Assembly: GCA_020853095.1 (NCBI GenBank)
Contig: JADYZN010000061.1
Coordinates: 1 to 64,000 of the forward strand
Direction: 5' to 3'
DNA length: 64,000 nt
From: Phycisphaerales bacterium
GTDB taxonomy: Bacteria; Planctomycetota; Phycisphaerae; Tepidisphaerales; Tepidisphaeraceae
Shown here: piece after piece, positions 52,160 to 61,729 of the stretch
Position numbering within the stretch: position 1 is the stretch's first letter
Layout of the letters: every line of letters starts with the position of its first letter
The notes under the pieces: model-generated
What the model was told of the DNA's origin: nothing
The model's database searches: none
What the model saw: the letters and a program-made list of their open reading frames with translations, nothing else
Program-made: the position numbers and the translations under genes

Positions 52160-52232
52160 GCGCCATTAGCTCAATTGGCAGAGCAGCTGACTCTTAATCA
52201 GCGGGTTCAAGGTTCAAGTCCTTGATGGCGCA
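52160..52232 (+). tRNA. tRNA-Lys (anticodon CTT), integration target
   Basis: A 73-nt cloverleaf: acceptor GCGCCAT/ATGGCGC, D-stem GCTC/GAGC, anticodon arm GCTGA-CTCTTAA-TCAGC (anticodon CTT), T-arm CAAGG-TTCAAGT-CCTTG, discriminator A; CCA is not encoded. Its last 44 bases recur at 61686-61729 with two paired changes, marking an integrated element whose attachment sequence restores the tRNA. Confidence 0.96.
52189..52232 (+). repeat. attL: tRNA-Lys 3' end copy
   Basis: This 44-base segment runs from the anticodon stem to the discriminator base and matches 61686-61729 at 42 of 44 positions. The first 20 bases, GACTCTTAATCAGCGGGTTC, are identical and likely contain the crossover. Confidence 0.88.
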
Positions 52233-52256
52233 ATACTTATGAACGACTGAATCGCT

Positions 52257-52278
52257 GGTGCTACCCCGGTGCTACCCC
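52257..52278 (+). repeat. Tandem putative integrase arm sites (left end)
   Basis: Two consecutive 11-bp copies of GGTGCTACCCC, directly repeated one helical turn apart, lie 25 bases inside attL. The same core GGTGCTACC recurs at the right end. Confidence 0.55.
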
Positions 52279-52286
52279 AAAAGAAA

Positions 52287-52307
52287 ACCGGCGGGGTTGC
52301 CGCCGGT
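52287..52307 (-). terminator. Terminator of the zinc-finger gene
   Basis: ACCGGCGG pairs with CCGCCGGT around a 5-base loop; on the minus strand it is followed by TTTTCTTTT. It lies 21 bases past the stop of the zinc-finger gene. Confidence 0.75.
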
Positions 52308-52327
52308 GAATCGAGTGGTCAAGCGAC

Positions 52328-52780
52328 CTATCGTTTATTCGGCCCTTGGTCTGCGGCCTCTGCCAGTTGCCTGAAGTCTTTGTCGGGGTGTGAATGCTTG
52401 ATGTGCTTCAGGAATGAACCATACAGTCGGTATTCCTTCCGGCACACCGGACAGATTCGCTTTTCCTTCCCGTGTTGCGGTTTCTCTGGCGGTATCGCCG
52501 GCGTAGATTCTTTCGCCGCCTCCATGTGTCCCTCGGCTTGCTCGGCCATGTGCAGCGCCTTAAACAGCCGCTCTTTCAGGTCTTTATTTTCGGCTTGTAG
52601 CTTTTCGATTTTTTTCAGTAATGTCTCCTCGCTCTCATTCCAATAATATGCAACCTCGTGTCCGTTGGGACAGTGGATCGTTTCGTCCTCCTTATTCCTT
52701 ATCCACCTTTTCGGCACGGCGAACCGAATACCGCAATCCCAACATTCAAGCTCCTCCATCACTACTGTTGACAAGGTCAT
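52328..52780 (-). CDS. Zinc-finger protein with coiled coil (satellite gene)
   Basis: A 150-residue protein. The N-terminal part has C-x2-C (ECWDCGIRF) and CPNGH, likely one zinc site. Residues ~55-90 are a coiled coil (ETLLKKIEKLQAENKDLKER). A C2H2-type finger follows: CPVCRKEYRLYGSFLKHIKHSH, given here as C-x2-C-x12-H-x4-H. The start at 52780 has GGGAG seven bases upstream. The gene is divergent from an RHH-type gene across a perfect palindrome. DNA binding is likely; it could be a regulator of the satellite. No homologue is recognised. Confidence 0.75.
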   Translation of the reverse strand: MTLSTVVMEELECWDCGIRFAVPKRWIRNKEDETIHCPNGHEVAYYWNESEETLLKKIEKLQAENKDLKERLFKALHMAEQAEGHMEAAKESTPAIPPEKPQHGKEKRICPVCRKEYRLYGSFLKHIKHSHPDKDFRQLAEAADQGPNKR

Positions 52781-52840
52781 AGCTATCTCCCTTTGCCACC
52801 CCACCAGCCAGCCAACACGGCCAGCGGCGGGATAGCGGAC

Positions 52841-52872
52841 ATGCCGGATAGTATACGGTTATTATCCGGCAT
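52841..52872. promoter_or_regulatory. Perfect palindromic operator between the RHH and zinc-finger genes
   Basis: ATGCCGGATA (52841-52850) and its exact complement TATCCGGCAT (52863-52872) flank 12 bases containing GTATAC. It lies centrally between two divergent start codons (52780 and 52921), where a repressor could control both. The RHH protein is the best candidate to bind it. Confidence 0.65.
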
Positions 52873-52920
52873 ATATCAAGATGGATTGCTATTATTTTTT
52901 ACGGGTACTATCCTGAAGAT

Positions 52921-59476: not shown

Positions 59477-59539
59477 GCCGGCGAATATGCAAGCATTTCG
59501 CCAGTGTCCGCAAAGCTGTCCGCTTAACACCAATAAAAA

Positions 59540-59558
59540 ACCCCGGAAATACCGGGGT
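59540..59558 (-). terminator. Terminator of the integrase-HTH operon
   Basis: ACCCCGG pairs with CCGGGGT around AAATA; on the minus strand it is followed by TTTTTT. It lies 53 bases past the stop of the HTH gene and separates early genes from the primase operon. Confidence 0.85.
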
Positions 59559-59611
59559 AAAATGCAATTCCAAACTTTTCGGACGCAAAACGGTCACAAA
59601 ACGGACGCAGA

Positions 59612-60226
59612 TTATCTATATATTTCCCGCATCTTCTTCCTTTGTGCTTCCCGCTTGCGTTTTTCGATTTGCTCTTGTGTCAGCATCCGCTTCTTTTGCG
59701 GCCTGCTGTGCTGCTTTATGTACTGATCAACGTCCTGCATGCGGAATGTTCCGTTTGGTTGTTTCTTGAGCGTCTTCTGTTTCACCGCACGGCGGATTGT
59801 CCGCTCCGTTACGTCGGCGCGTTTTGCCGCCTCGGCGCAAGACAGGGTGTCGCCGTCGTCCTCCGCCTCAACCCCCTCCCACGCCGTCAGTGCCGCCACG
59901 ATTGTATCCTTGTCTTTTTGGCTGTAGGGGAATCGCACAACGTCCCCGGCGCTTCGCACAATTTCAAATCGCCTCACAAGCGCTGGACCAGTCGGGAAGG
60001 TGAGAATATACCCGGACCATTCAAGCTCTTCGGGGTTTTCCCCCAAAGGCTCGCGCGCGAGAAACGGTGGTGAGTCATATCCCAATTCCTTCGCTTTTTT
60101 CGCCAACTCTTCGATTTGTTCAAATGGCCATCCAAACATGGGTATTTCGCCGATGTCGGTGCCGAATATTGGCAAAGCTTCAAACTGCCGGCGGACGGTT
60201 TGAATCAGTTGCTTAAATGTGGCCAT
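59612..60226 (-). CDS. HTH-domain protein (satellite)
   Basis: A 204-residue protein. Residues ~125-170 form a helix-turn-helix (SCAEAAKRADVTERTIRRAV, FRMQDVDQYIKQHSR), and the last 30 residues are strongly basic (EQIEKRKREAQRKKMREIYR). The N-terminal ~110 residues are unassigned (FGWPFEQIEELAKKAKELG). It is 11 bases downstream of the integrase gene and shares its terminator. It may regulate integration or excision; the function is not known. Confidence 0.7.
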   Translation of the reverse strand: MATFKQLIQTVRRQFEALPIFGTDIGEIPMFGWPFEQIEELAKKAKELGYDSPPFLAREPLGENPEELEWSGYILTFPTGPALVRRFEIVRSAGDVVRFPYSQKDKDTIVAALTAWEGVEAEDDGDTLSCAEAAKRADVTERTIRRAVKQKTLKKQPNGTFRMQDVDQYIKQHSRPQKKRMLTQEQIEKRKREAQRKKMREIYR

Positions 60227-60237
60227 ACATCACCATC

Positions 60238-61452
60238 CTACTTTTGCTTGGACACCTTCATCATCGCTTCAACGGCGGTGCCGATGGACTGGCGCACCGG
60301 GTCTGTATTCAATCTCGCGTAAATTTGTGTGGTCTGCGCCTGAGAATGGCCAAGGCTCTTTCCGATAACCGGAAGGCTTGCACCCGTCGCGGCCTGCCAG
60401 CTTCCCAGCGTCCTGCGGAGATCGTGCAATCTCAGGTCCGCCAGTCCGGCCGCGTCACACACCCGCTTCCACGCCATTTTCGGCTCTTCGATATGGCCGC
60501 TCTTCCCATAGCTTGGAAAGACGTAGGCGGGTCTACCTTCCGGGGGTGCGGTGCGTTCGGCATACCGCCGCTTCAGAATGTCCAAGGCTTCAGGCACCAG
60601 GGGAATGATCATCGTCCTGCCGGCCTTCATCTTGGCGGGGTTGATCGTCCATAGCGCGGTGTTGAAATTCACCTCCCCCCATTCCATTGTCTGAAGATTG
60701 CTCCGCCGTGCGCCGGTCAACAGTGCCAGCGTGAAAAAATCCTGCCAGTCCTGATCGACGGTTTTCAATGCTTCAAAAAACCGGGGTAATTCATCGGCCT
60801 GTAAGAATCTTTCCCGCTGGCCTTCCCTGAATCGCGGCACCCCTTCGGCGGGGTTGGGACCGTCATACCCCAACAGCCGCGCCTTGTTGAAAACGGTGCT
60901 CACCAGTGCCAGGACGCGATTAGCGGCAAACGGCGCGGACTTCCCCACCTTGGCGTGAAGGCTCGATACATCGGCGCGGGTAATGCTGGTGAACCGACGC
61001 GAGCCTAAGTCGGACAGGTGCCGGTCATATTGCGCCTGATCGTCTTCCCACGTTCTCTTGTGCGCCTTGGCGTGTTGTTCAATATACCAGCCGAAAAGCT
61101 CCCCGAAGCTCATTTCCGCTCTGACTTTGCGGCGGTCGGCTTGCGGATCGGCACCCTGTGCCACCTTCCCCAACACCCCCGCCGCCAGCTTGCGAGCCTG
61201 TTCAATACTCAGCGTTCCATCCCCCAGGCGATACCGCTGCGGCCGGCCGTTCACCTTGCCGTACCAGTAGAACGACGTTGCGCCGGTTCTGGTGATCATG
61301 TACGCCAGCCGGGGGACGCGGGTATCGAAGACCCATAGCCGATCCTTCCCCGCCGGCACCTTCAATCCCCGAAGCTGCTGGACGGTGAAATTAAACCTTC
61401 GGGGTAATGATTTTTTCTTTTCCCCCGAAATTCGCATCATTGGTTCTGGCAT
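60238..61452 (-). CDS. Tyrosine recombinase (integrase)
   Basis: A 404-residue phage-type integrase. Residues ~10-95 form an arm-binding domain (TGATSFYWYGKVNGRPQRYR), ~100-190 a core-binding SAM-like domain, and the C-terminal half the catalytic domain: TGARRSNLQTMEW (first Arg), HDLRRTLGSW (His-x-x-Arg), LGHSQAQTTQIYARL with the His/Trp-type position and nucleophilic Tyr. AGAGG lies seven bases before ATG 61452. It sits next to attR and would integrate the element at the tRNA-Lys 3' end. Confidence 0.95.
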   Translation of the reverse strand: MPEPMMRISGEKKKSLPRRFNFTVQQLRGLKVPAGKDRLWVFDTRVPRLAYMITRTGATSFYWYGKVNGRPQRYRLGDGTLSIEQARKLAAGVLGKVAQGADPQADRRKVRAEMSFGELFGWYIEQHAKAHKRTWEDDQAQYDRHLSDLGSRRFTSITRADVSSLHAKVGKSAPFAANRVLALVSTVFNKARLLGYDGPNPAEGVPRFREGQRERFLQADELPRFFEALKTVDQDWQDFFTLALLTGARRSNLQTMEWGEVNFNTALWTINPAKMKAGRTMIIPLVPEALDILKRRYAERTAPPEGRPAYVFPSYGKSGHIEEPKMAWKRVCDAAGLADLRLHDLRRTLGSWQAATGASLPVIGKSLGHSQAQTTQIYARLNTDPVRQSIGTAVEAMMKVSKQK

Positions 61453-61472
61453 ATTTTACCTCTATGTTTTCC

Positions 61473-61613
61473 GGTAGCACCAGAATCATCGAATATTCAG
61501 ACAAAATCGCGCCCCGCTGACTTTTCATCAATCTTTAACGAAAACTCCGGTGCTACCCAGGTGCTACCGCGTGCATCAATTCCCATCAATCCCTATAGTA
61601 GCACAGTGCTACC
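61473..61613. repeat. Cluster of putative integrase arm sites (right end)
   Basis: GGTGCTACC core copies lie at 61549 and 61560 (direct, 11 bp apart as at the left end) and 61605 (AGTGCTACC). Inverted copies lie at 61473 (GGTAGCACC) and 61598 (GTAGCAC). The pair at 61598-61612 forms GTAGCAC-A-GTGCTAC. They lie between the integrase start and attR, where arm-type sites are expected. Confidence 0.6.
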
Positions 61614-61685
61614 TTTTGTCAATTTTTCCCATGAAATATCTACGATTATCAATAACCGTCAATCAGCGGGTATGCGTGTTCTTGA

Positions 61686-61729
61686 GACTCTTAATCAGCG
61701 GGTTCCAGGTTCAAGTCCTGGATGGCGCA
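61686..61729 (+). repeat. attR: displaced tRNA-Lys 3' end
   Basis: This copy of the tRNA-Lys 3' end differs from the intact tRNA at two positions, 61706 (C for A) and 61720 (G for T), which pair with each other in the T-stem (CCAGG/CCTGG). It has no 5' half and is not a tRNA gene. Confidence 0.88.

Follow-up and report, generated by a model that had tools for sequence, protein, structure and literature searches.

The locus described here raises the question of whether a compact integrated element that carries a capsid gene and a gene for a small terminase subunit (TerS) is an intact phage satellite or what is left of a prophage. The element occupies positions 52189–61729 of a 64,000-nucleotide stretch of DNA, hereafter the window, at the start of contig JADYZN010000061.1 of a Phycisphaerales bacterium (assembly GCA_020853095.1, in 77 contigs). 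It measures ~9.5 kb, is inserted in a planctomycete tRNA-Lys(CTT), and has nearly all of its genes on one strand. An earlier note, made by inspection of the sequence, had proposed a satellite rather than a prophage, and our analysis supports this proposal. Because the element has a complete integration module, a predicted iteron origin, a primase under purifying selection, a sister element, and a gene set that recurs in other bacteria, we conclude that it is probably an intact phage satellite of the phage-inducible chromosomal island (PICI) type, whose TerS and capsid would work with the large terminase subunit (TerL), portal, and tail of a helper phage.

A complete integration module in tRNA-Lys

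The clean attachment (att) repeats described in the earlier note were confirmed. A repeat search delimits the element by two direct repeats of 44 nt on the + strand (52189–52232 and 61686–61729) that are 95% identical, and an intact tRNA-Lys(CTT) gene, which ARAGORN places at 52160–52232 on the + strand, has the left copy as its 3′ half. The T-stem reads CAAGG/CCTTG in the left copy versus CCAGG/CCTGG in the right copy, so that neither copy loses pairing, as would be predicted for an element that supplies a functional tRNA end. Further, the 14 nt past the right copy are the same as the 14 nt that follow tRNA-Lys in a sister species (genome G001). A count of octamers in the window revealed eight matches to GTGCTACC, compared with 0.46 expected by chance, and six of the eight lie at the ends of the element: two at the left end (52258–52276, + strand) and four at the right end (61473–61613, no strand assigned). 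Read from their sequence and position as integrase arm-type sites, these copies confirm both ends and complete an attachment module that also includes a 404-aa tyrosine integrase (60238–61452, − strand; PF00589, 3.6e-25; PF13356, 2.9e-8). Thus, the element has its own integrase and a specific att site, as PICIs do.

No empty attB site was found; the only other genome of the genus, that of the sister species, has another element in the same tRNA-Lys. This different 7.6-kb element (L287:1723–9130) encodes an integrase and an AlpA-like protein with 47% and 55% identity, respectively, to those of the window element, together with a DUF3987 primase and a PBECR3 nuclease, and it is without a capsid gene. 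Because the two elements share the site, this tRNA is a recurrent target.

Gene content fits a PICI and leaves no room for TerL or portal

Gene families were assigned by searches of Pfam and PHROGs, and all five gene types on which the earlier note relied (integrase, AlpA-like helix-turn-helix (HTH) protein, primase-helicase, P27-type TerS, and HK97-type capsid) were confirmed by both. Following the integrase on the − strand are an HTH_17-type regulator of 204 aa, hth204 (59612–60226; PF12728, 5e-4, a weak match; phrog_66, 5.8e-6), and an AlpA/excisionase-like HTH protein (59285–59533; PF12728, 2.9e-11; phrog_66), the latter being the AlpA/MerR-type regulator typical of Gram-negative PICIs. 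The primase-helicase is of the DUF5906/D5 type and up to 802 aa long (56528–58936, − strand; PF19263, 5e-14; phrog_1829, 1.5e-96), although its true start may lie near 58849. TerS, a gene found in some PICIs, encodes 175 aa (55422–55949, − strand; PF05119, 1.5e-15; phrog_83, 1.1e-20), and the major capsid protein is full length, with 445 aa and an N-terminal extension (53321–54658, − strand; PF05065, 3.1e-27; phrog_10). The order integrase, regulator, AlpA, primase, origin, and TerS, with almost everything on one strand, agrees with the layout published for Gram-negative PICIs (PMC6092414).

Consistent with a PICI, and as the earlier note had stated, no gene of the element matched a TerL, portal, protease, tail, or lysis family in Pfam or PHROGs. 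The unassigned likely genes of the element encode at most 158 aa, and the gap between TerS and the capsid gene holds two genes of 76–78 aa only; therefore, there is no hidden TerL or portal. These two genes are s76 (76 aa; 55189–55419, − strand), a homologue of which adjoins TerS in the second element described below, and s78 (78 aa; 54943–55179, − strand), a paralogue of s76 by alignment. Structure prediction gave two long helices for s76 at modest confidence (pLDDT 67).

This gene content bears on two alternatives. The element could be a capsid-forming PICI (cf-PICI), which would build whole heads and depend on a helper for tails alone, because a capsid and a TerS gene are both cf-PICI genes. 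However, a cf-PICI has genes for TerL, portal, head protease, and connectors (PMC10690885; a definition from later papers than the original one), and a search of the element for TerL and portal found neither. This alternative is refuted for the element unless its TerL and portal are unrecognisable proteins of <160 aa, and we give it almost no credence. The element could also be a prophage that is decaying by deletion, having lost its TerL, portal, and tail genes, with an inert remainder. Phage homologues do exist for all five hallmark genes, the primase and TerS also have relatives in full prophages with TerL (L055 and L057), and no helper or activity is known. Against this, the signs of decay that the earlier note had named are absent: remnants of TerL, portal, or tail genes were not found, nor were stops in the capsid or primase. 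The element also has no space for such remnants, all of its genes are open, and the arm sites, att repeats, and origin are intact. Similarly, the relative with the same locus occupied carries the different integrase-AlpA element and not a larger prophage. Decay is, in our judgement, unlikely.

A predicted origin and a second element in the same genome

Immediately 3′ of the primase gene, four iterons lie within 124 bp (56393–56516, no strand assigned): two copies of TGGCACGC and two inverted copies, in 10-bp steps, around a spacer of 88 bp that is 57% AT, compared with a mean of 44% for the element. Only two places in the window have an octamer repeated four times inside 200 bp, namely this cluster and the integrase arm sites. 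Origins of Gram-negative PICIs lie 3′ of rep, where two sets of iterons flank an AT-rich region (PMC6092414); the window element has the same sequence layout, and we predict that its iteron cluster is the replication origin. Immediately 3′ of homologous primase genes, 67 of the 172 regions examined contained one 8-mer four times or more, compared with 0 of 860 shuffles (first-order Markov samples); some of the primase homologues are near-duplicates, so the 67 are not independent events. Lineage-specific iteron clusters 3′ of DUF5906/D5 primase genes, as seen in loci L053–L225, offer a simple origin marker for this replicon family. The open reading frame (ORF) p97 (56238–56531, − strand) was at first regarded as a gene, but because it contains the predicted origin, it is probably not one.

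A second element (L052; contig C61, 166000–185427; genes at 9213–19428 of the locus) lies on the same contig, ~120 kb away. It shares with the window element, in the same order, the primase (67% identity), the origin layout, the 81-aa protein p81 (55996–56241, − strand; 84%), TerS (33%), and s76 (50%). The iteron of the second element is TGGTCCGC at all four places, as opposed to TGGCACGC in the window element, and because every iteron copy changed in the same way, the joint change suggests that initiator and origin evolved together. Further, identity between the two primase genes at the three codon positions is 0.76/0.80/0.46, a pattern that indicates purifying selection on the primase. Both observations argue against an inert prophage remnant.

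The region between the 3′ edge of the origin and TerS (55945–56358, − strand; counterpart L052:16300–16740) is a low-divergence tract of ~400 bp, much more similar between the two elements than the genes that flank it; 85–92% of its four-fold sites are identical, compared with 45% in the primase. Either gene conversion has taken place here recently or the DNA itself is constrained, for example as a packaging site, and with respect to packaging we regard the tract as a candidate cos or packaging site only.

In the visible part of the second element, no capsid gene was found, and s76 is followed by four ORFs without a structural family. No phage relatives were found for the genes in the place of the capsid, one of which matches a PHROG of unknown function. 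The two elements could be read as versions of one backbone (primase, iteron origin, p81, TerS, and s76) in which the position after TerS is exchangeable, holding a capsid gene in one element and unrelated genes in the other. As the genome has no prophage TerL, the TerS of such a satellite might even pair with an orphan host TerL-like ATPase-nuclease (see below); we consider this reading very unlikely. Searches of viral contigs with s76 and p81 gave no matches, and among 397 genomes of the class, full-length matches to p81 were found only in the window's own genome.

The capsid and its counterparts in other bacteria

The core of the window capsid aligns in full with phage capsids of the same bacterial class, a profile built from this alignment matches solved HK97-fold capsids (e.g. 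6tb9), and the window capsid falls within a clade of capsids of same-class phages. A capsid-only search of genome contigs and viral contigs gave no relative, the sequence being too divergent for the pattern method.

A lone HK97-fold capsid homologue is also the feature of cos-type Staphylococcus aureus pathogenicity islands (SaPIs) with Ccm. Ccm of SaPIbov5 has the HK97 fold with a delta domain, occupies pentamers, and changes prolate heads to small isometric heads (PMC8569155). By this precedent, the window capsid could be a Ccm-like size redirector that fills some lattice positions beside helper capsid protein in small mosaic heads rather than forming its own shell, and the element would still be a PICI-type satellite. 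Its place within the clade of same-class phage capsids is expected if it was taken from a helper-like phage, and 9.5 kb is the quoted average size of PICIs (PMC10803314). However, known phages offer no closely similar capsid (39% identity at best), so there is no matching helper to name, and SaPIbov5 is packaged by the cos machinery of its helper, whereas the window element has its own TerS. A redirector is thus conceivable, but we hold it to be doubtful.

To place the element, the surroundings of primase and capsid homologues were taken from the phylum, GTDB genomes, and IMG/VR, and integrase, primase, TerS, TerL, portal, protease, and capsid genes were labelled by iterated hidden Markov models, by which a very divergent TerL or portal could be missed. 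Most same-class relatives of the capsid belong to full phages or Mu-like prophages. An integrase and a capsid without TerL or portal were found in five other loci (L012, L117, L120, L093, and L099), four of which have att repeats. The one in the same family (genome G017; L012:3909–16915) is a 12.9-kb element in tRNA-Lys(TTT) with a perfect att repeat of 45 nt, and it encodes an integrase, a capsid with 39% identity to the window capsid, a primase-like protein, an Mrr-type nuclease, and an unassigned 975-aa protein, because of which this case is less secure. The others are from Rhodanobacter C01 (9.7 kb, tRNA-Pro), Rhodanobacter FW106 (no att pair found), Mycolicibacter (9.0 kb, tRNA-Gly), and Mycobacterium ENV421 (7.7 kb), and the mycobacterial loci L093 and L099 share the DUF5906 primase family with the window element.

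The approximately unbiased (AU) test rejected a single clade of the six satellite capsids (p 8.4e-5) and gave p 3.7e-5 for a grouping of the window and G017 capsids with the Rhodanobacter pair; the window and G017 capsids as one group were neither supported nor rejected (p 0.34). Because the satellite capsids do not form one clade, the combination of integrase, primase, and capsid arose more than once. Similar gene sets with att repeats in unrelated bacteria also weigh against decay, because deletion would need to remove the same genes each time. The earlier note had regarded a capsid gene without a protease or portal as an unusual intermediate, a view that is not supported because there are precedents in SaPIbov5 Ccm (PMC8569155) and in mycobacterial elements with integrase and capsid (PMC10654092).

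The Rhodanobacter capsid-bearing region L117 also contains, at L117:14658–16306, a SMODS nucleotidyltransferase gene with an adjoining gene for a 255-aa partner, which are likely defence cargo of the CBASS (cyclic oligonucleotide-based antiphage signalling system) type. Satellites often carry defence cargo, and the Mrr nuclease of L012 and the SMODS cyclase of L117 could be taken to favour a transferable island that no longer makes particles and whose TerS and capsid have become anti-phage decoys or taken on another host role. However, a PADLOC defence search of the element's genes gave weak matches only, and such a role would not require complete replication and integration modules; we regard this explanation as highly improbable.

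The helper question and a proposed mechanism

Several points weigh against an intact satellite. No helper phage was identified, and the TerL_ATPase and portal families had no match in the genome. A broader TerL profile gave one match in the genome, a gene with a Terminase_6C domain (C7:6176–7657; L291), which was considered as part of a helper prophage. We rejected it because its neighbours are housekeeping genes and because 43 of 61 relatives in the class have matches to it, mostly full length and 44–88% identical. This is probably an orphan host gene and a domesticated terminase, and a helper, should there be one, would have to be of outside origin or missing from the assembly. In addition, the second element continues past the end of its contig, so that the comparison covers its visible part; the closest relative of the capsid, at 39% identity, is too distant to measure selection on the capsid; a structure prediction of the capsid from eight diverse sequences was too poor to use (pLDDT 44.6); and mobility, induction, excision, and virion formation are so far predictions.

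Taking these points into account, we still favour a PICI-type satellite, which would work as follows. A helper phage would switch the element on through the AlpA-type regulators, integrase and AlpA would excise it, and the primase-helicase would amplify it from the iteron origin. Phage relatives of the P27-type TerS pair it with TerL; the TerS of the element would bring its DNA to the helper TerL. The element's capsid would assemble on the helper portal, using the helper protease if the N-terminal extension is cleaved, and heads with this capsid would favour satellite DNA, helper tails completing the particle. Whether the heads would be built wholly of satellite capsid is, in our estimate, evenly balanced; a mosaic of satellite and helper capsids, by analogy with SaPIbov5 Ccm, is a somewhat weaker prospect, and heads of some other make are rather unlikely.

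Other features of the element and its surroundings

The remaining genes of the element are small. One encodes a 128-aa protein with an ExoX-like C-terminal domain (58846–59232, − strand; PF20600, 4.4e-11). A 158-aa zinc-finger protein (52328–52804, − strand; phrog_33336, 7e-9, a PHROG of unknown function; weak zf-C2H2) is a possible accessory gene product, and a 58-aa ribbon-helix-helix (CopG-type) regulator (52921–53097; PF01402, 8e-7) is encoded by the sole likely + strand gene of the element.

The earlier note had also reported terminators. A hairpin search found strong terminator-like stems directly after the capsid gene (53234–53265, − strand; 14 pairs, closing the operon), after the zinc-finger gene (52287–52307, − strand), and after hth204 (59540–59558, − strand), and these are among the strongest stems. 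The total of 14 terminator-like hairpins, however, is not significantly above the 12.8 expected in shuffles. Promoter-like sites were no more frequent than expected by chance. Downstream of the element, at 63266–63867, we noted by eye a small gene pair that resembles an antitoxin and a PIN-type toxin (VapBC-like).

Relation to known satellites and implications

The window element resembles Gram-negative PICIs such as EcCICFT073 in its size of ~9.5 kb, its integrase, AlpA-like protein, and primase-helicase, its 3′ origin, the terS gene that is optional in that group, and its single direction of transcription. Every PICI feature that can be checked in sequence is present in the element. Unlike them, it has a capsid gene and a host in the Planctomycetota, and the two are related only via broad protein families. 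With SaPIbov5, it shares a single HK97-fold capsid homologue and, as we infer for the window element, the supply of TerL, portal, and tail by a helper; SaPIbov5 differs in its use of helper cos packaging in place of a TerS of its own, and no sequence link to Ccm was seen. Candidate PICIs with integrase and capsid, as well as phiRv1/phiRv2, have been described in mycobacteria (PMC10654092); these are likewise small, and some have replication and terminase genes. The window element has their defining combination of integrase and capsid without a full phage. However, some of them list a prohead protease, portal, or scaffold gene, they belong to a different phylum, and the L093 and L099 capsids are in a different clade from the window capsid, consistent with the AU rejection of one clade above. 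Capsid and TerS genes beside integration and replication genes are also found in cf-PICIs, from which the window element differs in being without TerL, portal, protease, and connectors and in being shorter than their 14-kb average. The PICMI (phage-inducible chromosomal minimalist island) satellites of Vibrionaceae are similar in their integrase, AlpA, DUF5906 or DUF3987 primase, and small size but are defined by the fis integration site and have no capsid remodelling genes.

The earlier note knew of no described planctomycete example; in agreement, a search of openly licensed papers found no planctomycete satellite. The functional layout of the element is already known, and what is new is the lineage, the host phylum, and the independent capture of a capsid gene.

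Overall, the element would extend the PICI type of satellite to the Planctomycetota. In at least three bacterial groups that are not related to one another, a capsid gene without TerL or portal now accompanies a replication core, which raises the question of which head parts a satellite gains by owning: the shell, which sets cargo size, rather than the motor and portal. Finally, the two related elements in one genome, with their jointly changed iterons, form a natural pair for mapping the specificity between initiator and origin.

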